NCBI RefSeq assembly: GCF_000003605.2
Contig: NW_003139320.1
Span: forward strand, 231,657-270,587
DNA from: Saccoglossus kowalevskii
Lineage: Eukaryota > Hemichordata > Enteropneusta > Harrimaniidae
Direction: 5' to 3'
DNA: 38,931 nucleotides
A program made the position numbers and the translations under genes. Shown piece by piece: positions 2,481 to 38,931 of the stretch. Position 1 is the stretch's first letter. Each line of letters opens with the position of its first letter. A model generated the notes under the pieces. The model saw only the letters and a list, made by a program, of their open reading frames with translations, was not told where the DNA came from and searched no databases.

Positions 2481-3520
2481 TTATTGATTGATTTCAACAT
2501 CTTCTTTGAATGTTATTTTGGATATAGAAGCAGTCAGTTTGTCGTTATTAATGACACTGTTCCCGTTCATTTCAATCCTTGGCTCATTACTCTCTTCTTG
2601 AGTTGTTTTCCTCGATGACATTCCTGTTAGCTTCTTAACATCGGCGGTGATTATTTCTTCTCTATTTTTTTTCTTGGATGATTGCTGATAGTTATTATTT
2701 GGTCTCATTTGATGTCTTTTTGGTGGATAGTACTGACCTGGTCTGGAATATCGTCCGGGTACATGGTACCAGGAAGAGGTATGAACTAAGCCGGTGAGTG
2801 GTCGTGGACATGGTGGTTCTCCAAGTAGACTCTGTATCTGTATATGAGGACCATGGATAACATTCTTTGCATTACTGGAATCTATCGTAAACTTGCCAGG
2901 TATAGTACACTTGACACGATGTACTGAGTCAGCATCCATAGCACTAACAGGTCTATTTGAGTACCCACTATGAACGGTGGATCCACTCCCACTCCGCTGA
3001 CTCCGCTGTTTATATCTCACTTCTTGCCATTGATTGTAGTTCGAGGATCTACCTTGACTGACTGGCCTGGAGTCATAGCCTGATTGTTTTGATTCACTTC
3101 TACTAGGGTAATTGCCACCATCATCGAGTCTGAAGCTGTTACTACTTGTGACTTGCGACCTGTGAGATCTTCTCCCAACTGAGCTGCTACTGCTGCTGCC
3201 TCTATTGATTTCCCCTCGCGATAATGGTCTTTGTGAAAATCTTGGTGATGGCCTTTTATCTAATTTGATCAAATCTTGATCATGCCAACTCATGCTACTA
3301 TATGGCTGTTCTGGAGTTCTTTTATCAGGTTGTTTCACTGGCGCATAGTCATATTCACCATGAGCGAGCTGGCTTTCAACCTGCTTCAAGCACATTCTGA
3401 CAGCTTTTGTGAGTTTATGATTAGGTCCCAGTATTGTGGATCTGACATCCAGTGATCTTTTTAGTAATTGAATGGCTTCTTTCTTACATTGGCGACTTCC
3501 ATCGTCCTTTAGCATTCGGC
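2481..3520 (-). CDS. TTC41: TTC41-like exon 19: last TPR and Ser/Arg-rich tail
   Basis: Terminal exon of 1040 nt (acceptor atttctag) ending at TAA 2483-2481. The first 50 residues complete a TPR (KKEAIQLLKRSLDVRSTILG then PNHKL). About 290 residues of low-complexity tail follow, with runs of serine (GSSSSSSVGRRSHRS), SRP/RPVS motifs that could be phosphorylated, and aromatic Gly/Tyr/Arg segments. A more ordered-looking block (KCTIPGKFTIDSS, VIHGPHIQIQSLLGEPP, SSWYHVPGRY, PPKRHQMRP) near the end may be a conserved short motif region. The tail ends in a Lys/Glu-rich stretch. Confidence 0.88.
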
Positions 3521-6500
3521 CTAGAAATTGAAATGCATACGGAAATATTAATATAATAATTCTAGCAGACTAAGATTATGCCATATTTTAGTTAAAGTTT
3601 GGGTTGCAATAAAAAATAATGATTTTACTACTCATACATATATTGCTGTTGAATATAGAAATGAGGGATGATTTTTGAATAATACGTACTAATATAATAT
3701 TTCAAATCTTTCGTGGTAGGGAACGTTCACTGTGGAATAATTTTATCTACTTTTGCACATTTTGTCTATGTAAGTCGCACATAAAAGATGGTCATCATGT
3801 CACGCCATGTTTGATATAGATGCTTTGTGTTGTAAACAAGGTAAGTAAAACACATATTGTTTGTTTATATGAAATTTGAATGCTCAATGCATTACAACCA
3901 CTGCTCTACTTTGAACAAGCAGCCTCTCGGCTGAGATAGCTCTGCTGTTAGCAAATCACATTTCAATTAAGAACTGAAAATATCATTGGAAAATGAACAA
4001 ATCTAGGAAAGGTCTCCCTGAGGTCCCTATATGTATAGTATCAAAGCAATCGGACTTACAGTTTTTAACAAGAAGTCGAAAATATCACTTTTTTAATACC
4101 CAAATTTACAAAATTTCACCAAAATTAGAGAATTAAAGATATCATCACAAAATGAACAAATCTGAGAGAGGTCCACATGTAGTATCTATATATATAATAT
4201 CAAAGCAATTGGACTATTGTTTTTTAACAAGAAGTCAAAAATATAACTTTTTTACCAAAAATGACCAAAATATTCACCAAAATTAGAGAATTAAAGATAT
4301 CATTACAAAATGAACAAATCTGAGAGAGGTCCACATGTAGTACCTATATATGTAATATCAAAGCAATTGCACTTGCGGTTTTTAACAAGAAGCCGAAAAT
4401 ATCACTTTTTACCAAAAATGACAAAAATATTCACCAAAATTAGAGAATTGAAGATATCAACATGAAATGAACAAACCTAAGAGAGGTCTACCCAAGGTAC
4501 ATATACACCAAATATCAAAGCATTCAGGCTTGTAGTTTTCAAGAAGAAGTCGAAAAAGTAAAACATTGACACGGACGACGCCGGACGACGCCGGACAATC
4601 ACTCATATGATAAGCTCCGCTCGACAAAGTCGACAGCGGAGCTAAAAAAAGTAATCTGATCAGCAGTACTACAATATACATACAATAAATACATACACAC
4701 TAAATATAGTATACTATATATATATACATATACCCCGGTATATTAGATCATTATTAGATATACAAGATAATTTTAGTCAGTGATATTAGCCTTTGGCTGG
4801 AGGTATTTCAAACTGACTTTAAATAAACGAATTAAATTGAATTCAGATTTCACTTGATATAAAATTGTATTCTCTTACCCAAGTGAAATAGAGTTGTAGC
4901 AAATAATAGATGGTTTGGTCCAAGGCTGGTTTCTCTGATCTGTAAAGCTCTCCTAAACATTGGCTCAGCTTCAGCTCGATCAAAGCTGAAATAAAAAGAA
5001 GTCAAATAGGCGATGGTAAGTAATGCTTCCTCCTAATTTCTTATCAGCATTGTGCAGGAGATTTTCTGTCAAAAAGTTAGTTTGCTCATCAACTGGTTTT
5101 TATAGTGTTACAAGGCTGGACAATCGGAGGTATATATAAAAAGGTCCTGTGAGACAATTTGTTATGTTTAGTGCAGTCTTCCAGGTATCGTATTTTCTCT
5201 ATTAGAAGCACATCTACAATAGAATCAAGAATTGCATTAAGGTAGCGAGAAGGGAAATTTTCACTTTTTTCTTGATTTTTCAAATATTGATAAAACGGTT
5301 ACTTTAGACCTTGATACATCACCCCAGGTTTACAAAAGATCGAAATTGCGAAATAACGTTGCTCAAATTAGTGTTTTAAAACACTAGCAGAAAAGACTAC
5401 AACTGCCGTTTCGTGGATATTTGCATAGTGTTTATCTTTGGAAGGAATTAAATGATAACATCTTATCTGTATACTCTGTTGTTGACGATTCTGATATAAC
5501 GGGTGATAAGCTTCCAGTTGCAAATATACTGGATCATTAAAATGTACTTTTGTTTGACTAAGGACACACCTCAGTTACCTTACGTAAGTGTATGTACTTC
5601 TAATAATAGAACAAATACATTACCCCCTTCCTGAATTTGTGGGACTGCTCTGTCAATTTCGTTCCCAGCATGAAACTCATGATTCAGTTTATGGCTTGAC
5701 TTAAGGTAGAAGCCTAGTCATAATTTTTGACAAAATTGGTCATAAATCGCATGACAATGTTCATTAGTTTATTATGTACAATCATGAAGCTAATGTCTCA
5801 TGGTACAATGAAATAGCATTATTTTGTGTGTTACAGTTATGCTTTTTGAGAAACGCGTCCGAATATTTCTTGAAAATTGCTATTTTTACAACAATTCCAT
5901 AGAACACAATGTTGAAGAAAAACTGCATTTTTTGACACTTTTTAAAAGCCGAATTTTTTAAATAATACAGAACAACAAAAAGTACTCCATCATTAACAAT
6001 ATATGATTTTGTCAGCCTATGTCACCAGGCTAGATTTTGAGATATTGCATAATATCTCTGCCATAGAAACCTGTGGTAAAAGTGTTATAATAGTGTCAAA
6101 ATGACGATTTTCCACTAAAATAAAACCATCAATTTCTCGAAAAAAAGGCTGGTGACACCCAACTTTTTTTAGGTCAATATCCTTATATTGCTTGGAGTAC
6201 AGTTTATTGCAAAATGAATAAATTCTGGGTTTTTTAAATTATGAGTAGGCTTCTACCTTAAAATGTAAAAAACTCTCAAATACAACCACATCATATTACG
6301 TCTGTTACTAAAAAAGGTTAGTAACTGTGATAGTACAGATTAATGAAATCAAAATTTTACTCCACACAATCAATAAGTTACATTAAATAAATGATATCAT
6401 TTACAGCACAGATTCATTAGATGACACAAAGTTAAGGAATAAACAACCTGTTTCTTTGTTTTGTTTTCTGGGTGCCATGTGATGCAACACTGGTCTAGCA

Positions 6501-9500
6501 CTGACACTCCAAACTGATGACACAATTGAGAATGTAATATTGACTCACTGTATGTGATTCCAGCGATCTGATAGTAATGTCGCAAGATTGTCTAATACTT
6601 CAGCAACCAATGGATGAGATGTACCATACCAACGCTCTCTTAGACTAAGTGCTTGGCGAAGGTTGGGCTCCGCTTTTTCATGTCTGTGTTTACGCAACCT
6701 GTAGATAATTAGTAGTTTGTATTAGTATTGAAATTAATTGTACGGATTAGAAAAAACACACACAAACAGGGGGGTTAGAATTTGTAGACATGAGGGCAGA
6801 AGAATTGACTTTCAACTTACTGTAAAATCTGTATTAGAAGATGTGCTTCTACTCAAATAGTACAATGCAACAGAGGGAAATGTCTTCTGATAGAGCATCT
6901 AATTTTTGGTTCTCAATTGGTCGAAAACAATGGATGTGGCTTCTATTATTAGAGGCACAACTTCTATTACAGATTTTATGGTATTTTTGTAAGTGGTATT
7001 GTAAGGATGACTGAAGAACTGATAGCCACTTTAAGTAATACGATAGCCACTTACCAATAAACACCTAAATTATAATAGACTGTAGCCCTCCCAGCTGTAC
7101 TTTTGGCAGAGTTCATGCACTCTTTGGCTTCCTGTAAATATGCTTGAGCTTCTGACCAGTTACCACTGTAAATCTTGATATTACCAAGTCTATTCAATAA
7201 ACGACCTGAAACAGGACAATACCAAAGTACTGGATTGATCCAACATTGAACTTTTATGTAAGAATATATAATCGGTTAAATTTGCTGATGGAATAGATGA
7301 GTTTCAGGTACCATTGATGAATTGACGTTGATTCACTTCCGGTCAGCAGAATTACGCAGTATTATACTGATATTTAACTAAAACTTCAGTTTTGTTCTGA
7401 ACTTGTAAATTTTGTTGGCAGTAGTCATTAAAGTGTTCTAAATTCATGCACACAAAACAAAAAAAATTTAATTTATATTAATTTAGTATTCATGTGTACT
7501 TTTGTAAGATATTTCTAGGGAAAAAAATACATTCATGACTATTGAAAATCTGAGAAAGATGTCAAAAATTTATTTTGGCGCTCAGTAAAATATTCATTCC
7601 TGCAGACATTTATATTTCTAACATGAAAAATATCACAAAATATTTCACTTCAAAAAATTAAAATTAAAATTTAATTTTTTTTAAAAGCAAAAACAGATAA
7701 GGATATTCAGAAAACAAATCACAAAGCGAAATAAGTGGATAGTGACCATACCTTTACTTTCCATATGTGTATTGTACTCAGTGACGCAATCCTCTTCTGG
7801 TATGTCTAACAGAGTATTGAGTGATTTCTTGTAAAAGTTCTCAGCTTCATCATTTTTCAGTTGATAAAAGTGCCATTCTGCTAAACTTTCTTCAATCTTA
7901 AAGCGTATCAATAACTCGTCACTTGACAATGGTGTTTTCTGCAAATAACAGTATTGAGGTGAATTCAAACAAAATACAGACTAACAATTTGATTTCTGTT
8001 TTCTATTGCATGTTAGCATGCATCTACCGTGTAAATGAGTTTGGGTGACGAATTAACTACCAGGAACATCAGAAATAAATCTCTAGTATCTGATAATGCC
8101 AATATACTCTACAAAACATCTTCTTTTATTAAACTGATACTATTATGATTAGTTGCCTTCATATATAGTTCATAAAATACATTTACAGAACCATAGTGAT
8201 TGAAAAAAACCCTCCAAAATCAAAAAACTATCAGCAAATTGTTCAATTTTGACCACAAGCAGTCTTTATGATTTGATGACCTGAGGGTGCCAGGGGAGGG
8301 TGGAGGTGGGGGGGGGGTCATGTTTGTGAGTGTAACCACACCTATATAGGTAAGTGGAAAAACATCAAGGGAAAGAGAAACCATGTGGCATGGTCTTGAG
8401 TACATGCACAAGCTTTTTTTATTACTTACTTCTTTGATGTAGGTATATGCCATGAATAATAGTTCTCTAGCTCTGTCAAAGTGACCCAGTTCAGATAAGA
8501 ACTGTCCAGCATATCTAGATAATGACGCTAACTCACGCTTGCTAATGGGAGGTTGTTCTGCAACTGCAAATACATGAATGTAGTGAGTAAGGCCAATTAA
8601 CATGGTATTTTCCAATTAGCATAATGAACACGACTTTACAGATCAAAAATATTACATTGTCATGGCAATTGAAAATCAGTTAGCATGCACATCTAGCTCA
8701 GTATGACTTGCATTTGTGTTTAATTCCAATGTGTCTAGGAAATAAAATGGCCACAGACATTTTGAAATTGTAAAAAACAAGACAAGGATTAGAAACAAAC
8801 CAATATGTGCTACCGATAACAAATTTAAAAGAAATCGGTCCAAACTTTCTGGCAAAAGAATGATTACAAGATGAAATGTTGTATTTATTTGAAGAGGGTC
8901 AAAAACGGTTGCCAGTCAATCAAATTAATTTGATATGAATATGTATATTGTATTGTCTTTGCACCAACTGCATACTAGCATTGAATGAAATTGAAAACAT
9001 AAGTTTAAACGAGACTAATAATAATTAGCACAATAGACAACAATGTAATCAAATCGAAACATTGTTGGCTAAATCCACCTTATTAAATTAAGGTAACACA
9101 GTAGAAAGATATTACAAGTATCAAATAATGTATGTTGCTTGTTTACCTTCATCTTCTGCAGTCAAATATTCTTCTGCAGAGCTCCATTTAGACAATCCTG
9201 CATTGATTTCACTATTCACATTCTCTGTTAGAAAATAAATCAGCATCAGTCAAGAATGAAGTCAATTTCCTGGTGATCAGTAATTAATTACACTTTACCA
9301 ACAAGTATTTACAACAATACCACAAGAAAGAAGCTGTTTCTAGTGAGACACCTATTCAAGGCATCTTCCCTAGGTCCCTAAATAACAAAAGAACTAGTCA
9401 AAACTGAACACTAACAAGTCTGAGAAAGGTATTTACTCAGTTCATAGAGTTTGTTCCAGGAAATCAAGGTGATACAGATCCTGAGAAAGACAGGTTTCCT

Positions 9501-12500
9501 TATTATGCAGTATATAGTTTAGTTTTATCGCATTACATAAATTAAACATAAATCTTTATCGCACAAAATACACAAATACATTAAATTCCAGTTTGTCTTA
9601 ATGGTCTACCATATTGTAGTATGTACAGAAAGAATACAAGTTGTACTATTTAGAAGGCAGCTAGTAATATACTAAATTGCAGTGTATGGTTAATGAATTA
9701 CCTTGGGCATCATAGAAATCTTCTTCTCTAGAACTATCTGATTCATGATCTACAGAGTTGATACACCACTGGGATATATCAGATTCTGTAAAAAATACAC
9801 AACAGGGTATTATTTATGCACTGTATTCCCTTAAATAAAATTTACTTATATGTGACACATTAATAGCATAAGAATATACAAAACAATTTTCATTACATTG
9901 AACATAATTTGCTTAATAACTTATGTTGTTTTCATGAGAATTCAAGCACGATGGTACCCCCTTGCCAGTTAACAATGTTGCTTTCAGACAAACATTTGGC
10001 ACTTGCTTTTAAAATAGGAACACCACTTCCCATAAATGTCTCAGAGTCTTAAGTGTTGTGAGAGTACTGTTATTTTGAGGTGAAAACCGCTACAGCATTT
10101 TAAAAATGGTTTATAACACACAATATGCCATATTTGTGTTTTCATTATATACCGGTAATAAAAAAAAACATTTGTTCAACACACATGAAACATGCTCCCA
10201 TTTTTATTTTTACTATATCAGTTTTATTCTGAAAATCCCAAAATCTGTTTCCCTCATACATACATTGCATTGAAGTTCAAAGGAATATTACAAATATGCA
10301 AAGTTTTATACCGGTAATCAGGATTGGTAACAACCAGGTGTAAACAATAATTTAACTGTTCTACTGCATGAAAGTGATATCAGATACATTTCATAACACA
10401 GTCAACTTTCTGGTTCATAATCACACATTATTAATGCACTGATTTATCGTATTTTTATGCAACTCAAACGGCGCCACATGCTAACATTGCAAAATTGCTT
10501 GCTAACGTGCATGCATGTTTTCTCGGCTCCACATGTATAACAGTTAGCAATAAATAGAGCCCTCACCTTTTGTAGCACTTGTAGCATCAAAGATATCACC
10601 ATCTGATGCTGAGCTCAGAAACAAATCATCTATTTTATCTATTCTATCCTCATCAAGCACTGGGATGGAGATGTCAGATGGATTGACTAGTAAGTTGTCA
10701 GAACTTGATATTTCTTCAATCACAGACAACTGCTTCTTTAATTCAGGTTTCTGACAATCTGTAGGATAAAAGAGAACTTTTATAAATATTCAGGGAATTG
10801 CATAACATGTTTATGAGTGTTAATCTAATGAGTGGTTTCACCAGCCATTCTCAGCTGTCATGTACATTGTACATATACCAGTATTTACGGTACATCCTCT
10901 CATATTGTTTCATATTGTTTTCATTTTTATAATGTAATTTTTTTTTTACTATAACATTAATAAATGACACAAATCAATACTATGAATTACTTACATGTTT
11001 TGATCAAAAACCTTTCTTTTTATCGCAGATAAAATTCTGTTATTGTAAAGTGTAAATTTTTTTATCACAAAAAAATCAGTCTTTTTTTGTATCATAAAAA
11101 GTCTATAACAAATGGAACTATTTTGTGAAAGGTGGAAGGGGATTAAAACTGACTATGGCTGTGAATAGTCCAGGAGTCTTTGAATGCATGCAATCGTTTG
11201 GAAAAATACATAGTGATGTATGTTACATGTACATCTGCAGTTAAATATCAATCACAGATAAATAATAAATCTCACCAGATTTATGTGAATCTCCTTTCTC
11301 ACTGACATCATCTACGGAGACTGACTGCGAAATAATGAAACAAGACAATTACATGTAATTATAAACTGGTACACTAAAAACCTGAAACTTTTTTCAAATT
11401 ATTTAAATGTGGTTGAAATTTTGGAGTTTTGATATGCCAGACGTCTTTGTAAATAGTGGTGGTAACCATTTTGTCCAAAAAACACAAAAATATCATGAAT
11501 CATATTATAGCAACTACTTTAGTGAATTGCACATTGTATAACAGCAAGGATTGATAAGCTAAAGGTATGCAACTTGGATATCGATGTAAGGTGATAAGTG
11601 ATGAAGATCTCACATTAATTGAACAGATTTCTAACCAATAGCGTAACAGAACACAGAGAACACTTGTATGAAACATACTGTATAAAACCACTTAATTTTC
11701 ACTGCTAGAAATTTTAGGATTTCAGGATTTTGAACAATTTTCTCCTGTAAAATTAATGATTTACAGTAATTTGATTGCCTAAACAGAAATGAGTGAAAAT
11801 ATCACTGGATTCAAAAACACAATTACATGTCAACAAAATGGTCTGAGATGAATATTTAATCAGTTCATCAGTTCATACTTGCTTGGTATTTGCATTTAAT
11901 ACTTCTAGAAATGTAAGTTTGTTTGTTAATGATAATCTTGTATCGTAAAATCTGTATTAGAAGCTGCATCCGAGTCCCTAATAGAAGTCACACCCATTCT
12001 TTTTTAAAAAATTGAGAACCAAAAATTCATATTTTCTCATGTGTGTAGATTCTCTATTAGAAACCGCATCCATTCTGTTGCAGTGTATCATTTTAATAGA
12101 AGCTGCAGCTTCTAATACAGATTTTACAGTAATTCATGTGACTTAAGCACAAGATTTTCATCTCATACCACATCACTCTTATAAATCCTTGACTACATAG
12201 ATGCATGTGAGAGACAGAATGTACAAATAGACTCATCATCACAAGAGGCAGTTGACCACATAACAAATTGCAGATTGATAATGTATATAAATTTTGTACC
12301 TGTGTTTTCTCACTAGATTGGTCATTATCAAATATTATCTCAATATGACTATCAGTTCTGTCTGTGATTGCTTCATTCTGTGAAGCCTTTTCTATCATAT
12401 TTTTGTAAATTGTTGATGGATCAAAGCCAGCGTCTCTTAGCGTTTTCCAATATCGATGAAGATCTAATTTCAATGTATCATCCTCTCCCCCACACATGGC

Positions 12501-18500: not shown

Positions 18501-20212
18501 ATGCATGAATGACTATGAATATCACAGCAGTGACTGTGTGTAGTATTCATGACAATAAATAGTGTACGAGCTGAGATTTTGGCGGATAAAAGTAAACAAG
18601 CAGCCTCTCGGCTGAGATAGCTCCACTGTTAGCAGTGCACATTTCAATTAAAGAACACAAGATATCATTAGAAAATGAACAATATGTATAGTATCAAAAC
18701 AATCAGACTTGCGGTTTTCAACAAGTGGAAATATCACTTTTTACCAAAAATTACAAAAATATTCATCAAAATTAGAGAATTGAAGATATCATTACAAAAT
18801 GAACAAATCTGAGAGAGATCCACATGTAGTACCTATATATGTAATATCAAAGCAATTGGACTTGCGGTTTTCAACAAGAAGTCGAAAATATCACTTTTTA
18901 CCAAAAATGACAAAAATATTCACCAAAATCAGAGAATTGAAGATATTATCATGAAATGAACAAATCTGAGAGAGGTCTACCCAAGGTACATTTATATCAA
19001 GTATCAAAGCATTCAGGCTTATAGTTTTCAAGAAGAAGTCGAAAAAGTAAAACATTGACACGGACGACGACGGACAATCACTCATATGATAAGCTCCGCT
19101 CCACAAAGTCGACAGCGGAGCTAAAAACATGAACCGGGGAAAGGAACGTTCAACTAATCTTGAATAATTACTACTGTCAATCAAAGTCACGTGATGTTGA
19201 ACCGCGAAACAGGATGCTCATAGGCTATGCAAGTGATTAACACCACTCATTAGCATAGCCACACCTCCAATTCAACTGGGCCTTTAACTTTTAAGCAAAT
19301 AACAAAATAAATAGACCATTACATTATACTTATCATTAATTTTATTTAGGGGGGCCTGTTAAGCCATAGGCTTATTTTCCACAGAACTTTCATGAGAGCA
19401 AGTTCTAGTGATAATATACTACCNNNNNNNNNNNNNNNNNNNNNNNNNNNNNNNNNNNNNNNNNNNNNNNNNNNNNNNNNNNNNNNNNNNGCTCCCTGTG
19501 GTAGAAACACAGACACGGAACAAACAGAATTATGCCACTTTTGTCAACTAGAAATGATGGAAACCAGACAAGTGGTCTATCGTACATTCTCTTTCTTTCA
19601 CTGATGAGTGAGCACCCAACCACAGTTAGTCTGCCAGGTAATTCTTTACAGTGTGTACTTTTCAATTAATTTATTGGCATTTAGGGAAAGAATTAATTAC
19701 TTGGAGTGACATGACACTAAGTAAAATATAACAGTTTGAGTCTTCACTGGGTATGAAATACTACCATACTTCGGGGATTGCCAAAGCTCAAGGAATGAAA
19801 ACCATTAAATGGATGGGATGGTCCCTTTATATACAGCTATATTTCTAGCAATATACTATGACTGGACTTAAAAAAAGAAGTTATGTTTCTGGTCAGCATG
19901 TGCACTAACAAAAACATTTTTTTTTAATTTTCTTTACAGATTTCACTACTGCACAGCAAAATCTGCAAAATTTGTGCCCTGGCAAATATTTTAGCAAAAA
20001 ACAAACAGAAAATGCCTCATCACCGAATTTTTTAAAATCAATTTGACCAGAAATTTGTTGTGCTATGTGAGGACATATGTGAAACAAATAAATAAATAAA
20101 AATATAAATAAATGAATAAAAAAATAAACACACAAACAAACAAACAAATAAACGAATAAATTAATAAACATATAAATAAACAAACAAACAAATAAATAAA
20201 CAAATAGGCAAA

Positions 20213-20247
<35 letters not shown>

Positions 20248-26200: not shown

Positions 26201-29200
26201 ATCATAGGAGTTTTATTTTTGTTAAAGTACCCAAAGGTTAGCATCACACAATAAGTATGTGTGTGCTACCATGTTTACAACAAACAAATAATACTACTTC
26301 CTGCAAAGAAAACTTTAGAGGTCTGCTAAGTAGGTAACATGTGTTAGTGCAATACAGTTTTAAATATCCAACATAACACATGTTATTGTGTATTTTTGTG
26401 TGCTCGAATATCCAATTAATTTTTACAATCGATAACATTTAATTACATTGGATTGCAAAAGGTGAGTATCTGCATATTATTTACTAGAGACAGCTGTGAA
26501 GAGAAAAACCTGTAAACATGCTTTATTGTCATCGTTTGTTCTCACAACTATTATGTGAATATAATGTTTTTTTTAAAAAACAAAATAGCATTGCAATAAA
26601 AGAAAGAGAGCAGATGTGTAGCAGGTGTTGAGCCCTGATGATTCGACTTAAATTCAATACCCACATGTTCTAAACTATACTGACAATATGGTGTACAGAA
26701 TAAATTGAGAATTAATTTGTGATTATTGAAATTTTATTCTATATTCTGATCTTTTTCAATAATGATATTTTAATGATGTACCGTGGCAACACATTTACAA
26801 TGGCAACTCAGCAGAGCCAATCAGTTGGACAGTAAATTAACACATCAACACAATATGAACAGTAATGATATCAGATATGAACGTGCAGGAAATTTATCAT
26901 GGAAATGAAAAATTATAGATTATTTTTGATGGAAGAAAAATGTAATATAATTCAACTAAGAGATAGATTAGTTATATGATCAGATGCTATTTTATGCACT
27001 TCTTATTTTCACATTTTTATACTGTATTATTAATCATCAGTCATTCCACTAAATTATGTGCTTGGTCACATTTTTAAAAAGTAACATTTCTGGGGATTTT
27101 ATTTTTGAAATTTTGTTTGTATGACCAAACATATATAACCTCATGAATATCTTTAATTACCCCACTATGTTAATGTTACCAAATACCTCACGATTTCACA
27201 TTAAATTGCTTACATATTATTTTTATTTTAGTAGATTATGGAAAATTAATTATTACAGTCAGCAGGTGGTGGTTATTACCAGAGAAGGATTTAGAGAGGG
27301 AACGCCCAAACTGGACCACTACTAATGCAGTACTAATTACGCCTATTACCCATACGTCATAATGATATTATTGTTAAGCCTAAAAGGTGCTCCTTCTCAA
27401 ACCACACATCCTGCATCTGCATTGTATTATACCAAAAAATATTGAACTTGAGTGTCACTGGTACAGATGGGTCCAAGCACATTATAGAGCATGTCAAGGA
27501 AGTCCATTGTTGAAGAGGTGTATAGTTTTTAAAATCCTGGCTGTGTAAATGATATAAGACCCAAAAAATCCATTGAGTGCACAAGAATGCTTGAGTGATT
27601 GTACATTTGGACCTACCCCAATGCACATATCAATTTCAAATACGAGTAAATACAAACCTATAGTACAGCCAAGCCTTAGGGGCAAATAATGTCTTACTTT
27701 AGCAAAACCTGTCAGCAACATATAATAATACATATAATAATATCTTCCAGCTTTGTGTTTTAAGTGAATTTCAACTCAAAATTTGTCATTGTATGTGCCT
27801 GTAAAACACTTTGCTTGAATTTTGAATTTAATTTCACAGCAGGAGTATGTCAAGGAAAAAAAATCTAACATAAGTACAATATCCCTTATACATGTATAAT
27901 CATTGAAAATAAGCTACACTCAAACATGCTGTATTCAGTGAAAATATACACATGTACCGGTATCAACTAAAAAAAACTGTCTATAAAATTTGAATACTGT
28001 AAAATACTTTTTTTTTAGATGGAATTCATTTTTTGATGAATTGACATTTTGACTGTTTTGTATGACATTTATTTTCACTGTATTTTGATATGAGTTGAAT
28101 GTAACACATAGACAGTGAAAATTAATTCCCAGAGAAAATAAAGAACTTCACAGTAACACTGAAATATAGATGAAAATAATTTTAGATAAGTAAATTTATC
28201 AGCAATAAATCATCTGTATGCCTTGTTTGCCATGAGATACAATATATTGAACAGAAAAGACAACATGTACTTTATAACACTTGTTCTTATTATGTTTCAT
28301 TTTATATTGTATTGTAAGTGCATCTTAAATACAAGCTCACACAAACCAAAAAAAAACAAAAACATTTATTAGTACACGTATTGTACATAGTTTGCTGACA
28401 TAATTTTACCATAGACACACTTCTGTATTTTATGCACTACTAACACAGGGAATACATACAACTTGTGCAAGTCTCTTTTAATATCATTCTGCATACAAAC
28501 TAATAAAATTATCCAAATAACCACTTAATAAATTGTTTCTCTTTTGATCAATATGTAAGGTATTAAAATACGATATGGAAATATAAAAATCAAGAACAAT
28601 GGTTAATTATTACTAATTTTCAGTTTACTTTTGGAACTAACATTTCTTGAAAAATTTGCTAAATTTTTTTTTGTTAGTGACTGTTTTCAATACAGAAGAA
28701 AAATATTCAATGACACTTGCCATGTACAGTCATTTTAATTACAAACTGTTTTAAATATGATGTTTACTTCTTCTGGGTTTGCCTATCTGTTGTTCTTTTA
28801 ACCTTTTATATTTTTGTCCTGCCCTTGCCTGTTGCTACATGTGTAGGTAGGTCAAATATGCGCAAACAGAATTACATCACGTCTGTTGGTAATTCAGTAA
28901 TCAGGAATTTACAGTAACTTTTTTTATTTATCTATATGCATCTTCCATGCAGATTACAATGAAATTGCAAGCTCTATCATATTCAATTGTACATGTGTGC
29001 TAGGTAAACTAACAAGATTAACTCAGAAAAGAAAAGTGAGATTAGATTGCGCTTACTTTTCAGTATGTATTGGATCAATTCTCACATTTTTTTCATTTGA
29101 AGAATGGTTTCTCAATTTTGTTTTCTTTCAGTGGGAAAGTTGTTTTTATTCTGTTTCACTTTGGTTTTAGTTGTTTAAATGTCAGTGTGAATATAGATTA

Positions 29201-29886: not shown

Positions 29887-30046
29887 GAGATGTGTTTTGG
29901 AATCTTGACAGGTAATACTTTGCGTTTACATTTCGTGTTGGTATCCAAGTAATTCATTACTCTAAACCATTGTCATGTAGCATTCACAAAAATCTGTCAA
30001 GAATGAAGAAGAACGGAAATATTTGTATCAAGTGTAATATTTATGA

Positions 30047-30223
30047 TTTAATCTCTTGATCGCCATCCACAAAATAGTTCCATTTATAGTCTGCTCTTTT
30101 CCAACATTCAATGTTTTTAATTTAATTTTTTGATCAAAAACTAGACGCAATGTTACATTTTGTCTGTTTTGTCCAAAATTATGATTGAATTCACAGAAAA
30201 TGTGAAAAAGTTCAACCCAATTA
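30047..30223 (-). mobile_element. diverged MITE of the same family, copy 3
   Basis: It begins TTTAATCTCTTGATCGCCAT, a decayed version of the AACCTnTTCACCACC end, followed by CCACAAAATAG and TTTATAGTCTGCTCTTTTCC, matching the core of copy 1. The right end is degenerate. It lies in the intergenic space 160 bp upstream of the TTC41-like start codon, so it may be part of that gene's leader or promoter. Confidence 0.5.
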
Positions 30224-30769
30224 GAGCGGAAAAAAAATTGAAGTTGAAAAATGTTGCAGTTATGATTCTGAACAAGTGTGGAAGTCTGACCGACTTCGCT
30301 GCAGTGTATGTATTTGTTTAGTTTCATTGTAGATCGCGATCACCCTACGACAGACAACATAACAATACATGTACTGCCAATAAAAAAACAGCAACAAAAA
30401 AAAAAGGAAGTTGAGAGAACTACATCGAAACCAAGAGCAACAGTAAATGGATCTACAGGTACTAAGTAGTCGGAATGATGAATCAAAACACGATGCCAAT
30501 GCAAGATTAAATTAAATTAAAAAGTTGACAGCAACTCCAAAAAAATCAAATCGATACATTTTTTGAGGATGACAATTATACCATGCCTTAGGTTGCCTTC
30601 AAGTTTTATGGTGATCACACTACTTAACACAATAACAAAATGTGCATTGTTTATCCTAACTGACATGAGTGTTATCACAGAGTGGCTACGGTGTTACACA
30701 CACTGGCACAGATTATAAACACGACATAAGAACTTATCATGCCCCACAGACAAATTTCGTGATACTTAC

Positions 30770-30960
30770 TGGTCTACGAATTTTGAAATGTAAATCTCTT
30801 CATGATCCTGAAATAAAGATATCCCCGGGAAAATAACGGAAGTTGACACAAAGCTTTCAGCGTCGTTTATCGCTAGGCAGCAAAATACAAGGACAACCAC
30901 TCGGGAAAGTCCTGCAACCTCGTTCAATTCTGTAGTTATATGAAAGATATAATATCGCAT
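30770..30960 (-). other. possible first exon of an unknown or alternative transcript
   Basis: The open frame from ATG at 30960 encodes about 63 residues with a hydrophobic segment (LSRVVVLVFCCLAIND), like a signal peptide or anchor. It ends exactly at a strong donor, CCA|GTAAGTATC (30769). It lies between the two genes, upstream of the TTC41-like start. If spliced to the sequence just before that start (acceptor at about 29903) it would be out of frame, so it would be a 5'UTR exon there or belong to another gene. No homology is recognised; a chance open frame remains quite possible. Confidence 0.25.
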
Positions 30961-31315
30961 TTTTTGTAATTCTGCCCATTTATATGTTAAAACAAATTAA
31001 ATTATTTTAATAATTATTGTTTTGAAAGTATTAACCTTTTGAATTCTGGCAATAAAGCTCTATTACTAAGATACATATTCCATGTATAGGAACGAGGATA
31101 GTCATATTTCTACCCCGCTTAAAATGTGCAATAGAAACCTATAGTTAGTTTTCTAAACTTCTTAACGCATTCCCATTAGGTTATGACGGTAATTATCAGG
31201 GATATTTAAAATAAACGCTTATTTTGATCATGAATAAATTAACGTATACAATCTTGACCCAGACTGACATCATGACGTTGTTATGACCCCCATAATTTTG
31301 AGTTCATATTCCTGG

Positions 31316-31334
31316 CCAATAAGAAAGGGCCACG
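31316..31334 (+). promoter_or_regulatory. ER stress response element (ERSE)
   Basis: A perfect CCAAT-N9-CCACG (CCAAT AAGAAAGGG CCACG), about 200 bp upstream of the HSP90B1 start codon and on the same strand. The ERSE is bound by NF-Y at CCAAT and by ATF6 (or XBP1) at CCACG; it is the classical element of GRP78 and GRP94 promoters. This predicts induction of the gene by the unfolded-protein response. Confidence 0.85.
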
Positions 31335-31397
31335 CTCTGAGGTTGTAGTCTATGATTTGGTACTATTTTATTGGTCCATTTTGATCACGAGGGGATA

Positions 31398-31416
31398 CGC
31401 GGTATGCTCTGATTGG
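31398..31416 (-). promoter_or_regulatory. near-consensus inverted ERSE
   Basis: CGCGG-N9-ATTGG, which on the minus strand reads CCAAT-N9-CCGCG, is one base away from the ERSE consensus with exact spacing. It is 82 bp downstream of the perfect element and 117 bp upstream of the ATG. A third inverted CCAAT with the same spacing but two mismatches is at 31356-31374 (TTTGG-N9-ATTGG). Confidence 0.6.
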
Positions 31417-31532
31417 CCGAGAATCTTCGAGGTATTCCCTAAACTGACCGGGATTTCCGTGTTGACTCCACTCAGCTGAACTACTGGCTCTCTTTCACCT
31501 GGGCTTCGGAGATAGGTTAAGATATAATCAAA

Positions 31533-31584
31533 ATGAAGAGTCAATTTTGGTTGTTAGCCCTTTTCGGCTTACTGCTCGCGTCAA
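31533..31584 (+). CDS. HSP90B1: HSP90B1 exon 1: signal peptide
   Basis: ATG in a favourable context (TCAAAATGA) encodes [17 protein letters not shown]; the exon ends after 17 codons plus one base at GTAAGT. Joined to exon 2 the protein continues [10 protein letters not shown], so a signal peptidase cut after VLA or nearby is likely. The exon border inside the signal peptide and the 1.95-kb intron 1 that follows resemble the small first exon of vertebrate HSP90B1. Confidence 0.93.
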
Positions 31585-34500
31585 GTAAGTTCAATTTTAT
31601 TCACATTTTTTACAATTTTATTTAAAATGAAACGTTCTGTCGACTGCTGTACATGTGAAACGTGTTCTGGATGCGGAAGTGCTTACGCGTACTCCCAATT
31701 ATACGTGAGTTGGAACAGTGTTCACACGTTGGGAACATAAATAAATGAACGTTGGTTTGCCTTTTTTTCAATTCATTATTTTCACATTCATTTATATTAT
31801 AGTTCTCGTGTTGTCAAATAAACGCAATAAACTAATGTTAACATTTTCCGTCCGCCATCGATTCCAGAATCTTCGAAAACTATTCACGCCTTTTAGTTTT
31901 TTTACACCAACTGATCATGTTTGCGAGACATTGTAGATGCTCTCAGATCCCATGTAAGTCCTAAAATCGTGAAAACAGCTAACAGTGACTGTCCGAATTA
32001 CGTTCCTATAGTTTGTATGCAATAACCTTATCCAACTATCGATCAGAATTGCTGTTGCCCCTATTTGTATATTCTTATATCTCCCCATTTTGTTGTCAAC
32101 ATAATTATAATTCAGTGACTTTTCTCCAAAATAATGTTGAGAAAAATGGCAGTAGGCTAATGTAAGCCCAATATTTAAAATTTTAATAATTCTGGTTATA
32201 TAGGTTATATAGTTCCAAATTAGATCAGTATTAGATTCGGCGATGTTGTTTGTAAAATGTATGCAGATGAGTTTAGCTTTTGCTAAAAAACTTTAATTAA
32301 TTTGTGGAACTTGGGAGGGAGATAATATGAGAAATGTTATAGTTAAAAGGAAAATTTGCCTTAACCCAACATTTACTTGTGTTGTGTAGAATCCGCCCTT
32401 TCATTCATTCAGGTATCAAGTCATTACAAACCTAAAAATAGTAATCAATGATTTGAACAGCCAATAGAATAATGCCAAATCATTATAGCCTTAGAAACAA
32501 TGACTTGAAGCAGAGTAATTTATTCCATTCATTGAGTATGCATTGATGTTCACAAATATGAATATCTTCTCAAATACACATTACATTCAAATGTGTACCG
32601 GTACATCTAGTATTGTTTAATAGTTTGTGTCAGGCCTAAAGCATTGTCCTGTGAAATAAGAACACGTGTTGCTAGGACTTTACATTTTTATGCATTTACA
32701 GTATGTATGTAACATAAGAAGAAATAATGTTGGATCATTTTAATGAAAGATGCTGTAATTTTCATTGAAACATAGTCATTTATTTAATTTCATAGATAAA
32801 TTTGAAGAAAAAACGTGCTGTAAATTATGGTTTGTTGTGCTGCACATCATTTCATTTTCTTTTACATTGAAGTTTTAAATAAGAAGTTTGTAAATTATTC
32901 ACCAGGTATAAATGTAACATCATAAATTAATAATATATTAGTTTCATTGTTAATTTGTTTATCTCGACTGAAGATGCACAACAAAATTGATTGACCCCAA
33001 ATATCACTTTGGTTATTTAGACACTAGTTTGTCAAATTGAATGACAAGATTTTAATACTTTATACTTAATATTTTATATATTTATTTTGTGCATCCATTT
33101 TATCATTTCCCTTGGCCAAAGTTCATTAATTTGGCCATCTGCTCGCCAACATACCTTGCCAGAATTCCCACTATAAAACTATATTCACTGTCTACTAAAT
33201 CAAATAAATCTATTGCAAAGTCACACATTGTTAGCAGTTAAGCTACGATGTTATACAAGATAACAAAATTTATTGGTTTAAATTTGGAATTAATTTGAGC
33301 CGATACAGTAGCGCTGATTGATGGATTTGGCACACCAAATCAAATCCTTCAATTTAACTATAAAAGTCAAATGCACCTTTTTCTAACACAATCACACGGC
33401 CATGAATAGTCGACAAAACAGTGTGAATCCGATAATGCCAGGTGTACACAAATTGTTAAAATTGATATCCAAATGCAGGTACAGTTCATTAATACGATTG
33501 TTGTATATACTTAGCTTGATGTTTTATTGTAGCATGTGTGTTGGCTGAAGGAGCGGAAGATGCTACTGTTGAGTTGGATGATGATATTGGTAGCAGTAGA
33601 GATGGATCAAAGACAGATGACGAAGTTGTCATGAGGTAATAATCATTAATTTTAACATTTTTTTCTTCTGATATTTGACAGTGAGTTTGTCGCTTAGAAT
33701 TTTCGCTGAAGGAATTATTCAGTGCAAATAAAATCCAGCGACTATACCATTTTTTTCCTTTATTTTACACTCAACTCGTCAAAAAACAGTGAAAATAAAT
33801 TTTATACAAAACGCAAAAAAAGTTGACTCAGTGAAAATTAATTCCAGCTAAAATAAAGTATTTTACAGTAATTGTACAATTGCACGTTTCATGTGACAAT
33901 TACATCTGATTCATAAATGAATACTTGCAATTTGCATGTAACAGTTGTTGGCTTGAACACAGTACATCTTCGCACATAATTGGTAGGATAGTATATTGAT
34001 GCTGGAATTATTCAATATCAGAATTTATCCACACTACACATTCTCATTGTTAGAACAGCAACTATTAGATTATCTTGGATTATCTGCTTTAAAATTGTGT
34101 TCTTTTGGTCGTTGCTCAACAACATATGGCATAGTACTTAGTATGTGAATAATAAGTAGTCTCCATATTATTTAGATATACATATTTTTTTTTGTCACTG
34201 CAATAAGTACACTATAATCTATTTATTCTTTATAATAGAGGGGTCTTCCCTTGTTGTTCATTGTATGGCATACTTGACTCGTACTAGAATTTAATACTTT
34301 AATATATTTTGTTACAGAGAGGAGGAAGCAATCAAATTGGATGGTTTGAGTGTGGCACAGATGAAAGAACTTAGAGATAAATCTGAGAAGCACATTTTCA
34401 AGGCTGAAGTTGATAGAATGATGAAACTCATTATTAATTCACTATATAAGAACAAAGAGGTAATGTAATGACACGACTTGTACTCAAAATTAATTTTTTT

Positions 34501-37500
34501 TGTTACAACTGAAAAAGTCAACATTAATATTTTGATGTGTAATATTTTTAAATGTTTTTTTTTTTTTTTTAGATCTTCTTGCGTGAATTGATTTCTAACG
34601 CTTCTGATGCCTTGGATAAAATCAGATTGTTGTCTTTGACCGATAAATCTGCTTTGGATGCCACAGACGAATTTTCCATAAGAATAAAGGTATCAATATT
34701 TGTAATGTTTTTTTATAATTACTTGAGGAAAATTATGTTTATGAAGTGTTAATGCTCTCCTTGCCTTCAGGAATTTACTCTCCGACAAAAAGCATTGTGC
34801 AATATTGTGTTGTCTGTCATACTTACCGGTAATGTCTGTTGAATTGATCAACAATGCTAATTTTTAACTGACTTAATACCAGAAGCATTGTTTTGTGAGA
34901 ATATTTTAGATCAATGATACTAAACCAGTTCCATGCATAGACCTTATAGGTCTTGTGATATTTAACTGTTTCAATTCCTTTCAGGCTGACAAGGACAATC
35001 ACATGCTACACGTTACAGACACTGGTATTGGAATGACAAAAGAAGACTTGAAGAATAACCTTGGTACTATTGCTAAATCAGGAACCAGTGAATTTCTCAA
35101 TAAAATTTCGGTAAGTTCATAAAGTCATATTGTCAAATGATAGCTGTTCAGGAATGATTGTGGGTTTGGAGTTATTAAAATATTGTATAATTGATTAGTA
35201 GATATTGTATTTCTTCCAGTTTATAAATAAATTACCATGAATTCAAATTATTTTCCATTGAAGAACAGTTTTTAATGCTATATTGCATACTGAAGCATCT
35301 GCTAAAGTTGAGCACAAGTTTCGAAATTTTTCCGTATTCATCAGTTATCCACATGGTTTTATTAATCTGTTTTAATTCAATTTATTTCTTCAGGAGGTGC
35401 AATCTGCAGATGAGATGAGTGATATGATTGGTCAGTTTGGCGTTGGTTTCTACTCATCTTTCTTGGTATCAGACACGGTCATTGTGACGTCAAAGAACAA
35501 TGATGACAAACAATACATCTGGGAATCTGATGCGTCTGAATTCTCCGTGGTTGAAGATCCACGTGGTGATACACTCAAACGAGGCACAACTGTCAGGTGA
35601 GTTAATCTTGTGGTACCTGTGTTGTATTTAGTTGGAATTTAATTAGCATTACAAATTCTTGACATTTTGCAGAGTAAACGATACCATGAAACTAAGAAAA
35701 AAGATTTTTTTTTAATCATAACCTTGTTTCCATGGAAACCATGACTTTTTGATTGGTTTCTCCATAGTATTGAACCATACTAAAGTGGCCATTTTGAACT
35801 GAAAATTGATCAAAATACATACAACTGAGATTCATAATTTAAAAAAACTAGTTCATATAATCTAAGTTTATTCTTCAGACAATAAATAAATTCTGTCTTG
35901 TAAATGTTGGTCGCAACCATTCTTAAGTTTGTTATCCTGTAGCTTATTAGCTTATTGAATGCTTATTTCCGACCTTTCTTCAGTTTACATATCGCCAGTG
36001 GAGTAACAATTTCTGTTTTACAGTTTACTTTTGAAGGAAGAGGCCTATGACTTCTTGGAACCAGGAACCATTAGAGAACTTGTCAAAAAATACAGTCAGT
36101 TCATCAACTTCCCAATCTATCTGTGGGCCAGTAAAACTGAGATGGTAGATGAGCCTTTGGATGAGGATGAAATTGAAGCACAAGAGATGGAAGACGCAGA
36201 TGAAACTGAGGAGGGAGACGAAGATGAAGGTAAAAAAATTGAAATAGTAGCGATACTTTACTGCTTTGGATTGTAGAGGAATAACATAGTCTGTTTATGC
36301 AGGAGTTTTGTTCAGTGGCTGCTGACTAGCCATCTACTTGGCTTGATCAGTCAGTTCTTTGTATTTTTTGACTTGCAACCTCTCAAACTTGGCGAATCAC
36401 CTTTTATATTTTACTCTGTAAAAATTAAAGCTTATAATCTTTTTTTTGCAGAAGCCCAGGTTGAAGAAGAGGCTGAAGAGGAAGAGGAGAAACCAAAAAC
36501 CAAACAAGTAGAGAAGACTACATGGGACTGGGAATTAATGAATGCAAACAAACCAATTTGGACCAGGAAGTAAGTATATGTTATCTTTAATTCTAACATT
36601 ATTTTACTTTCTTTCACAGATTTATCATTCTTTGAGGTAAACCAGACTAAATCTCGATACTTGATTTACATTTACAGTCCTAAAGAAATTACAGATGAAG
36701 AATACAATGACTTTTTCAAGCAGTTCACCAAAGAGGTTGAAGACCCATTGGCAAAAACACATTTCACTGCAGAGGGTGAAGTAACTTTCAAGTCTATCTT
36801 GTATGTCCCCAAAACTGCACCTTCCGGTATGTTCAACGATTATGGAAAGAAGACAGATTTCATCAAAGTAAGATATTCTATCAGTCCAGAGATGGTGGAG
36901 GTGTAATTTAATTTGTTTTCAAACCACCTTGTATATAAATACAGTAATGATCCAGCTAGTTTTTGAATGATTTGGGTTGATCCAATGTTAATAATTTGAT
37001 TCAGTTTTGAGGTGATTAGCAGTAGTGGATTAACTGTGTGCGAATATAGGCTGATTACACTGATATAACTTAGGAAAATTTTACAAATGTGTGGTATTGC
37101 ATGTAAATGTTTAATTCATTGTTACCATTTCAATTTTTGCTGTATAGAATGAGTAATTGCATAATTCCGAGGTCTTTCAAGTCTTCAAAATATCTAAATT
37201 TCAAAGAAATAATTGCAATTTGTCGTACATTTGAAAATGTAGAACATTTTTTTTAAAAAAAACACAAAAAAACTCCAATCAATTTATCATCTCATTTTCA
37301 TGTGTTTGGAATGAAGTGATTTTAATTTTCTGATCGATATTTTTTCCATTGTTTTGTAGATGTATGTACGTAGAGTGTTTATCACCGATGACTTTGAAGA
37401 CATGATGCCAAAATACTTGAGCTTTGTCAAGGGAATTGTTGACTCGGACGATCTGCCTTTGAATGTATCTCGTGAAACTCTTCAACAACATAAACTACTG

Positions 37501-38931
37501 AAAGTCATTAAGAAAAAACTTGTTAGAAAGGTAAGACAACATAAAAAATTTTCAGATTTATTTTACTCTGGGGCTATTTTGCTGTTCATCGTAGTGCGAT
37601 TCTCCAAGCCCTGGTCAGATGTTACTTTTTCAGAAGCTAAATGCAGCCAGTTTGAGAATTCTTAAATGAATCATTGGTCAGTCTTGTTGCGCAATTCCAA
37701 CCAGAAATGTTTCTTGCTACAAATACAACCATTCATTAATCAATCATGTCTTTATTCTTTTCAGACTTTAGATATGATCAAAAAGCTGGATATCGAAGAA
37801 TACAATGAAAAATTCTGGAAGGAGTTTGGTACCAACATTAAGCTTGGTATTATTGAAGATCATTCAAATCGTACTCGTCTTGCCAAGTTGGTCAGATTCT
37901 TCTCGTCCAACTCTGATACAGAATTTACCAGTCTCGCTGAATATGTGGAAAGGATGAAGGATAAACAAGAGCATATTTACTTTATGGGTGGTGCCAGCAG
38001 AAAAGAGGTAAATGCTAGATATTTGCATAGTTTTGTATTTGTTTCAGTGTTGAACCAAATGTACATAATTCCCCTTTGGCCACAGGTTTTGATGAAAATC
38101 TTAAAGAAAATTCTGTGGATTTGCAGTCTGTTCACATAGGTTCACACGTTACATTTTCACACGTAACAATTACGAAGATTTACTCTTATGTATTTATGCA
38201 GAATATGTTACTTATGGACACTATGTATCCGATAATGATTTGTGATTTGTTTCTTTCAACATTCATTCAAAATTTTAAAAAGAAATTTAAATATTTTATC
38301 TGAAATATTTATGGAATGAAGTAATAATTAATAAATAATTTATTGTTTTAGGTTGAGAGTACACCATTTGTTGAAAGACTATTAAAGAAAGGCTATGAAG
38401 TGCTGTATCTGATAGAGCCAGTAGATGAATACTGTATACAGTCACTGCCAGAATTTGATGGAAAGAAATTCCAGAATGTTGCCAAGGAAGGTCTCAAACT
38501 CGATGAATCTGAATCCGCTAAGGAAAGATTTGAAGAAATTGAAAAAGAATATGAACCATTGATGAAATGGATGAAAGATGCAGCTCTCACAGATAAGGTA
38601 AACAAAATTGGTTTTATTACCTGTAGTTGGTAAAGAACGTTTGCTGCCAATACCCTTGTTTATTCCTATGTTCCTGGTGTCCTGGTAACGTTCTGGTTTT
38701 GACAGTACCTATGCTGGCAAGATTTTTGCCGTTCTGGTCCTAAATATATAAGGCGTTTTGAATTGTATATGCCATTGCACAAAATCGTCTTTCATTTTCT
38801 GAATTTGTCTTAATGCTTGTTTTTTGTCCATCACAGATCAAGGAAGCTGTGATTTCCAAGCGCTTGACAGATTCACCATGTGCATTAGTGGCTAGTTCAT
38901 ATGGTTGGTCTGGTAATATGGAGCGTATCAT
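31533..38931 (+). CDS. HSP90B1: HSP90B1 (GRP94, endoplasmin), 5' part of the gene, 13 exons
   Basis: ER-lumenal HSP90 that folds secreted and membrane proteins (integrins and Toll-like receptors in mammals) using ATP. Exons: 31533-31584, 33533-33635, 34318-34459, 34573-34689, 34985-35110, 35394-35596, 36024-36229, 36452-36569, 36678-36867, 37360-37530, 37765-38007, 38352-38597, 38837-38931 (continues past the window). All borders are GT-AG and phases agree, giving about 670 residues in the window. Visible parts: signal peptide, the GRP94-specific pre-N segment ([12 protein letters not shown]), the GHKL ATPase domain, the acidic linker, the middle domain with SRETLQQ, and the start of the C-terminal domain ([11 protein letters not shown]). 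N-glycosylation sequons NAS, NVS and NRT sit at positions known from vertebrate GRP94. The remaining C-terminal region with the expected KDEL-type signal lies beyond the window. Expression is likely stress-induced through the upstream ERSE. Cytosolic HSP90 is excluded by the signal peptide and pre-N segment. Confidence 0.97.
31585..33532 (+). other. HSP90B1 intron 1
   Basis: AT-rich, without recognisable exon or mobile element. One TACCGGTA palindrome is at 32596-32603. The open frame 31745-31936 has no protein pattern. Confidence 0.7.
33829..33870 (+). mobile_element. family B MITE fragment in HSP90B1 intron 2
   Basis: CAGTGAAAATTAATTCCAGC followed by TAAAATAAAGTATTTTACAGTA matches the right 42 bp of the element at 27995-28155. 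Two further weaker CAGTG(A/C)AAATAAA blocks occur just upstream (33719 and 33788), suggesting nested or rearranged copies. I could not identify a left end. Confidence 0.5.
34318..35596 (+). CDS. HSP90B1: HSP90B1 exons 3-6: GHKL ATPase domain
   Basis: Exon 3 carries the [19 protein letters not shown] helix. Exon 4 has [18 protein letters not shown], with the catalytic Glu at about residue 104 and the Mg/ATP-binding Asn at about 108. Exon 5 has HVTDTGIGM (Asp about 150, adenine-binding) and [12 protein letters not shown]; exon 6 has [14 protein letters not shown]. All four Bergerat-fold motifs are complete, so ATP binding and hydrolysis are expected. The GRP94-specific insertion before IGQFGVG is [10 protein letters not shown] here, one residue shorter than in mammalian GRP94 as I recall it. 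Confidence 0.95.
36024..36569 (+). CDS. HSP90B1: HSP90B1 exons 7-8: charged linker
   Basis: After [19 protein letters not shown] the frame becomes highly acidic ([20 protein letters not shown], then EEGDEDE in exon 7 and [15 protein letters not shown] in exon 8). It then gives [17 protein letters not shown], the start of the middle domain. An intron (36230-36451) splits the linker at a Glu codon. The linker is calcium-binding and modulates domain docking in GRP94. Confidence 0.94.
36678..38931 (+). CDS. HSP90B1: HSP90B1 exons 9-13: middle domain and start of the C-terminal domain
   Basis: Exon 9 has [20 protein letters not shown]. Exon 10 has [19 protein letters not shown] and [13 protein letters not shown], with the Arg (about 457) and Gln (about 461) that complete the ATPase site. 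Exon 11 has [20 protein letters not shown] and [20 protein letters not shown]. Exon 12 has [20 protein letters not shown] and [20 protein letters not shown]. Exon 13 has [20 protein letters not shown], running off the window within the Ile-Met codons. Exons 10-13 all start in phase 0. Confidence 0.96.

Follow-up and report, generated by a model that had tools for sequence, protein, structure and literature searches.

A TTC41-like gene stands head-to-head with HSP90B1 in Saccoglossus kowalevskii and may encode a STAND-class sensor whose TIR-like head is of the NADase type

Results

A DUF4062-NACHT-TPR gene lies head-to-head with GRP94

In a 38,931-nucleotide stretch of the genome of the hemichordate Saccoglossus kowalevskii (contig NW_003139320.1, positions 231,657 to 270,587; hereafter the window), a minus-strand TTC41-like gene and the plus-strand gene of the endoplasmic reticulum (ER) chaperone GRP94 (HSP90B1) are arranged head-to-head, with their start codons at 29886 (−) and 31533 (+), 1,647 bp apart, and no N between them. 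Our best reading is that the two are an old, inherited gene pair, on the basis of the name of the human pseudogene GNN and a chance expectation of ~7e-6 (both described below), and that TTC41 is a putative NADase-type sensor of the STAND class (signal transduction ATPases with numerous domains); we give this reading as a whole about an even chance. We observe the gene pair, the domain order, the homology to the TIR domain of TEP1, the conserved glutamate, the bacterial relatives and an ER stress response element (ERSE) directly. The initial annotation of this stretch had claimed that a minus-strand DUF4062-NACHT-TPR gene and a plus-strand GRP94 gene can both be read, with start codons 1647 bp apart; the spliced models and Pfam confirm both genes, and the distance is correct (31533 − 29886 = 1647).

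The minus-strand gene (2481..29886) was modeled by our own dynamic programming on splice and codon scores and has 19 coding exons that encode 1,530 residues and end in a stop codon at 2481. The exons are 29886-29284, 24050-23864, 23228-23027, 18298-18084, 17006-16849, 16078-15616 and 15065-14886 (exons 1-7), 14181-13980, 12510-12300, 11324-11276, 10758-10567, 9785-9702 and 9224-9147 (exons 8-13), and 8563-8430, 7938-7752, 7205-7055, 6698-6549, 4985-4879 and 3520-2481 (exons 14-19). A further exon of the first full model (4641-4477) was repeat DNA and was removed by hand. The first in-frame ATG is at 29886 and the second at 29883, and an in-frame stop lies just above them at 29926-29928. The sole N run of the window (67 bp, 19424-19490) falls within an intron of this gene, so that the sequence carrying exons 1-3 and the GRP94 exons has no gaps.

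In the spliced protein, Pfam found DUF4062 (41.9 bits, cut-off 24.7), NACHT (26.9 bits, barely passing at 0.2 above the cut-off of 26.7), NPHP3_N (31.4 bits, cut-off 24.8), TPR_12 (91.6 bits, cut-off 30.1) and TPR_10 (65.9 bits). Exon 1 (29284..29886, −) holds the TIR-like DUF4062, matched by Pfam and by phmmer to the TEP1 TIR domain, and exons 4-6 (15616..18298, −) hold a P-loop NTPase of the NACHT/STAND type, matched by NACHT and NPHP3_N, in which we take GDRGCGKT to be the Walker A and VLILDGIDEL the Walker B motif. The open frame of exon 7 (14827..15065, −) contains a winged-helix-like segment (HTH_NWD1, 20.7 bits, below the cut-off of 27). Most of the TPR region lies in exons 14-18 (4879..8563, −; TPR_12 and TPR_10), and the region ends in exon 19 (3520-2481, −), which also encodes a tail rich in Ser and Arg. 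Vertebrate TTC41 has the architecture DUF4062-NACHT-TPR; the same order is found here, as it is in other genes of this genome.

The codon score is positive for every exon, and 18 of the 19 exons and 17 of the 18 junctions are normal. The weak spot is the splice junction after exon 7, which is doubtful: the conserved FHQNLREAMEHALL extends to 14827, past the modeled donor at 14886, and there is no good GT donor from 14886 to the in-frame TAA at 14824-14826. The frame past the donor could reflect a non-canonical junction, an allele or an assembly error. It could also indicate that TTC41 is decaying in this species as it has in humans, since beyond FHQNLREAMEHALL the frame runs into the TAA with no usable donor; we consider this very unlikely given the normal state of the remaining exons and junctions and the codon scores throughout.

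The plus-strand gene (31533..38931) comprises 13 exons up to the window end and encodes a hydrophobic N-terminus. It was identified by tblastn with a non-database human GRP94 sequence, a gene model, Pfam and phmmer. Its exons are 31533-31584, 33533-33635, 34318-34459, 34573-34689, 34985-35110, 35394-35596 and 36024-36229 (exons 1-7), and 36452-36569, 36678 to ~36867, 37360-37530, 37765-38007, 38352-38597 and 38837-38931 (exons 8-13), with exon 9, which ran to 36900 in the model, trimmed by hand before the Pfam search. Pfam assigned HSP90 with 627.9 bits, and by phmmer one exon matched endoplasmin with E 2.8e-39 vs 3.4e-20 for HSP90-beta, the best cytosolic HSP90. A C-terminal KDEL-type retention signal marks HSP90B1/GRP94, and the contig ends inside this copy. 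Because the contig ends with the window, the gene is incomplete and its 3' end is missing. An HSP90 search of the genome gave seven matches, all on this contig (three first-look candidates), and no cytosolic HSP90 or TRAP1, so that the assembly, or the first look of this search, seems incomplete.

The minus-strand gene is very probably TTC41

The minus-strand gene was named TTC41 because of its neighborhood, the human pseudogene being named for Grp94. Human HSP90B1 presumably starts a few hundred bp beyond that pseudogene. In the source we cite for it, the latter appears as 'Grp94 neighboring nucleotidase pseudogene (GNN)' at chr12:104237526-104323989 (PMC4995371). When four DUF4062 loci, the number above the cut-off and hence a lower bound, are placed randomly in the 572-Mb genome (572,110,611 bp, 4,830 contigs), the probability of a head-to-head start ≤2 kb upstream of GRP94 is ~7e-6. 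A non-database mouse TTC41 sequence matches the window gene at 34.9% over 797 columns (447 bits, vs 165 bits for the next gene), and in a quick tree, from which 8 of 38 bacterial rows were excluded as long-branched or short, it groups with the window gene at 100 in the Shimodaira-Hasegawa-like approximate likelihood ratio test, with C2221 next (92) and NPHP3 apart on a long branch. The head-to-head arrangement of TTC41 and HSP90B1 claimed by the initial annotation thus stands, with the name TTC41 drawn from the neighborhood and the non-database mouse sequence.

The same annotation had named a grouping with NPHP3 as one result that would overturn it. Our partial test disfavors such a grouping: the TPR_NPHP3 model (PF24885) scores 82.3 bits, under its cut-off of 100, and NPHP3_hel is not listed at E≤0.01. 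A human NPHP3 sequence, likewise not from a database, matches C1728 with 184 bits, C2221 with 138 bits and the window gene with 72.4 bits. No NPHP3 gene was located in the genome among the TPR_NPHP3 exon matches examined; the best short one, C1047, is kinesin light chain-like by eye, not NPHP3.

Several points weigh against naming the gene in this way. At least three further DUF4062-NACHT genes exist in the genome, each modeled with a P-loop after DUF4062; C1728 aligns to the TPR region of the window protein (E 9.4e-14), and the C2221 model ends before reaching any TPR array. Because other genes also combine DUF4062 with a P-loop, the architecture cannot name the minus-strand gene, and the neighborhood becomes circular if it serves both to name TTC41 and to claim synteny. 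The mouse sequence was written down without a database record and with the window already known, and is therefore a lead that cannot count as a test. The gene might instead be a different paralogue with the DUF4062-NACHT-TPR architecture, placed next to GRP94 by chance, as the presence of at least four DUF4062 loci, three of them elsewhere and modeled with a P-loop, would allow; such families are numerous in clams, with DUF4062 in 12 of 99 NACHT (NLRP) members in Corbicula (PMC8298618). The low probability of random placement and the better fit of the non-database mouse sequence, with the reservation just given, make a chance paralogue highly improbable in our judgment, and the available sequences point to the minus-strand gene as very probably orthologous to vertebrate TTC41.

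On the upstream side, the recognizable genes by eye up to 120 kb along the contig are POC1-like, cyclin-Q-like and RBM17-like, none of which, we assume, is a human neighbor. The shared piece on this side is therefore the pair itself; the opposite side lies past the end of the contig. Our literature search returned no paper naming TTC41 together with HSP90B1, nor HSP90B1 with microsynteny; a single paper gave the GNN name in full, and looking there for coordinates of human HSP90B1 brought no usable result.

The DUF4062 head resembles the TIR domain of TEP1

The DUF4062 exon matches the crystal structure sequence of the TEP1 TIR domain (11gz) by phmmer with E 2.8e-14. Residue 161 (E161, codon 29404-29406) falls on the position of the catalytic glutamate, TEP1 E1008, and residue 106 (R106, 29569-29571) retains TEP1 R976, the RYG arginine. 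The catalytic glutamate is further supported by four rows from the same genome and by 53 of 63 bacterial rows. A single-sequence structure prediction gave a low-scoring model (pLDDT, the predicted local distance difference test, 35.7), and 11gz was not among the matches listed by Foldseek against a structure collection ending April 2026. A bioRxiv preprint dated May 2026 (PMC13174449) shows in its main text that DUF4062 domains are TIR-like NADases in a bacterial antiphage system and in human TEP1; the human set comprises TEP1, NWD1, NWD2 and NPHP3, the last three of which were inactive, and the NADase activity of TEP1 is slow and rises with concentration. Neither TTC nor pseudogene appears as a term in that main text.

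The initial annotation had called the ancestral role of TTC41 unexplored. We can sharpen this: the protein resembles a STAND sensor whose TIR-like head is of the NADase type; that the head is active as a NADase is plausible, at a little under an even chance. An alternative of nearly even probability is that the head is a pseudo-enzyme or scaffold and that NACHT-TPR oligomerization alone matters, as assumed for NWD1, NWD2 and NPHP3. Two observations weigh against activity: the preprint assay (PMC13174449) found no activity for three of the four DUF4062-NACHT proteins of humans, and two of the three TEP1 active-site arginines are not Arg here, with K37 (29776-29778) in place of R908 and N83 in place of R954. 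Against a pseudo-enzyme, the catalytic glutamate and the RYG arginine are kept, and a dilute assay that shows no activity says little because TEP1 is itself slow and concentration-dependent, as that text reports (PMC13174449).

Relatives with the full domain order occur in bacteria

A single scan across bacterial and archaeal genomes, using a four-row DUF4062 alignment, yielded 68 confirmed loci (86 matched stretches). By blastp, 66 of their 68 open reading frames (ORFs) align with the window protein over the DUF4062 core; a single alignment reaches the NACHT part in 40 of the 68, the TPRs are matched in 17, and NACHT and TPRs are both matched in 16. The Methylobacter psychrophilus ORF L046 (1,230 residues) aligns in one piece with window residues 28-1219 (25%, E 2.5e-75). 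Among the six ORFs searched with Pfam, all pass the cut-offs for DUF4062 and TPRs, and four pass that for NACHT. Some bacterial ORFs match the window protein as closely (E 4.7e-78) as C2221 of its own genome does (E 1.8e-78), although the two values come from different small databases. L046 (3986-7675) also scores 508 bits with TPR_NPHP3, which other bacterial ORFs pass too, and the model is therefore not specific for nephrocystin-3.

A multiple bacterial origin of the animal genes was considered and not adopted: the animal genes do not form one group in the unconstrained quick tree, but neither a single clade of them (p 0.602) nor one of the window gene with C2221 (p 0.614) is rejected, for which reason we claim no transfer. 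Viral contigs gave no relative of the DUF4062 exon (two stretches matched the pattern, none was confirmed). In PADLOC, no model matches the DUF4062 exon; three bacterial ORFs match TPR models, one of them also a CARF-type model.

The intergenic region carries an ERSE close to GRP94

The intergenic region (29887..31532) measures 1,646 bp and contains no N. It holds a perfect ERSE (CCAAT-N9-CCACG) at 31316-31334 (+), 199 bp upstream of the GRP94 start codon; no other exact copy occurs in the window, and the simulated expectation for the region is 0.0013. NF-Y binds this element together with ATF6 or XBP1s, and the Hsp90b1 promoter is known to contain it (PMC8301375), so that an exact ERSE near GRP94 is expected. 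A one-mismatch ERSE-like site at 31398..31416 (−) is weak (three in the window vs 0.93 expected; 5 of 100 shuffles reach three), and the window has no exact unfolded protein response element and 41 one-mismatch ones vs 32.35 expected. The observed/expected CpG ratio in 400-bp windows is 0.64-1.09 over 29601-31600, compared with 0.22-0.46 over 28601-29600 and 0.24-0.52 over 32001-33200.

Bidirectional promoters have start sites less than ~1 kb apart; the distance between the ATGs here is 1,647 bp. A non-coding TTC41 first exon nearer GRP94 finds weak support in an acceptor at 29993 (score 3.8; ~0.06 such acceptors expected in 264 bp), which would make 29887..29993 (−) a possible 5' untranslated part of the second exon, and in donors at 30770 or 31449 (~1 expected). 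Shared regulation is a guess, given an ERSE beside GRP94, and co-regulation of the two genes is in our view unlikely. We find it rather probable that the linkage is passive, i.e. that the pair was inherited and never parted, the ERSE serves GRP94 alone and the intergenic region does nothing for TTC41. GRP94 is a housekeeping chaperone, unlike the testis-listed Ttc41. The points against shared regulation are the distance of the ERSE from the TTC41 ATG (1.43 kb), its closeness to GRP94, and the listing of mouse Ttc41 as a testis gene in one source (PMC6842137); in addition, human HSP90B1 is itself named among ERSE genes (PMC5890977), and one Ttc41 expression table (PMC9180418) does not name Hsp90b1. 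On the other side, the high-CpG stretch is continuous across both 5' ends, and the possible 5' intron, although weak, would move the TTC41 start toward GRP94.

Other features

A dispersed repeat with ~157-bp internal tandem units occurs in TTC41 introns at 3951-4648, 18594-19127 and 22650-22956; the copies at 4249-4548 and 18738-19037 are 94% alike, and the repeat peptide LSTLSSGAYHMSDCP recurs in L026. Another intron contains a low-complexity (AAAT/AAAC)n array (20074-20276). Rfam and tRNA scans of the window gave no matches. The 45 ORFs with the best codon scores include none from the 60 kb that adjoin the 3' end of TTC41 (C3047:171657-231656; L023, L024, L005-L008). Elsewhere in the genome, the DUF4062-NACHT genes C1728 (L013-L016) and C1684 (L017-L020) are 53% alike over the first 394 aligned columns and form a small expanded family; C1728 has further TPR_NPHP3-type exon matches.

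Discussion

We propose that the C-terminal TPR array of TTC41 would sense a ligand, that the NACHT P-loop ATPase would then oligomerize, and that the N-terminal DUF4062 head, TIR-like and with an intact catalytic glutamate, may thereupon cleave NAD+. As both genes lie in one CpG-retaining promoter stretch with an ERSE, unfolded-protein signaling may also reach TTC41. A bolder version, to which we give a slim chance, is that animals have retained in TTC41 a bacterial-type STAND executioner, a DUF4062 NADase triggered through assembly of NACHT-TPR, and that it stays beside GRP94 because their common ERSE promoter lets ER stress set the dose of this NAD+-depleting sensor in death or immunity; long-lived mammals including humans would then have lost it. 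Should our reading hold, TTC41 would be an animal protein of DUF4062-NACHT-TPR architecture that is not among the human proteins assayed in the preprint (PMC13174449) and has full-architecture relatives in bacteria, and an orphan gene broken in humans would become a candidate NAD+-cleaving sensor amenable to a one-residue test. It would also give a concrete reason to ask why TTC41 stays beside an ER chaperone gene.

Compared with known systems, the window protein shares with TEP1 (PDB 11gz; PMC13174449, main text) the homologous DUF4062 with the catalytic glutamate and one arginine, whereas TEP1 is located in the vault and has TROVE, vWA and WD40 parts, and the window protein has TPRs and no such parts were found in it. 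With Swarozyc, the bacterial DUF4062 NADase defense described there, it has in common the DUF4062 head with the conserved glutamate, but KpSwz carries a small helix-turn-helix auxiliary domain in place of NACHT-TPR. In NPHP3, DUF4062 and NACHT are likewise adjacent and TPRs (by Pfam family name) are common to both; unlike NPHP3, the window protein stays under the TPR_NPHP3 cut-off and begins directly with DUF4062. Vertebrate TTC41, compared here through the non-database mouse sequence, shares the HSP90B1 neighbor, and its human copy is the pseudogene TTC41P. Finally, bacterial DUF4062-NACHT-TPR proteins such as L046 have the same domain order as the window protein, and L046 differs in being a single open frame with a longer TPR array.
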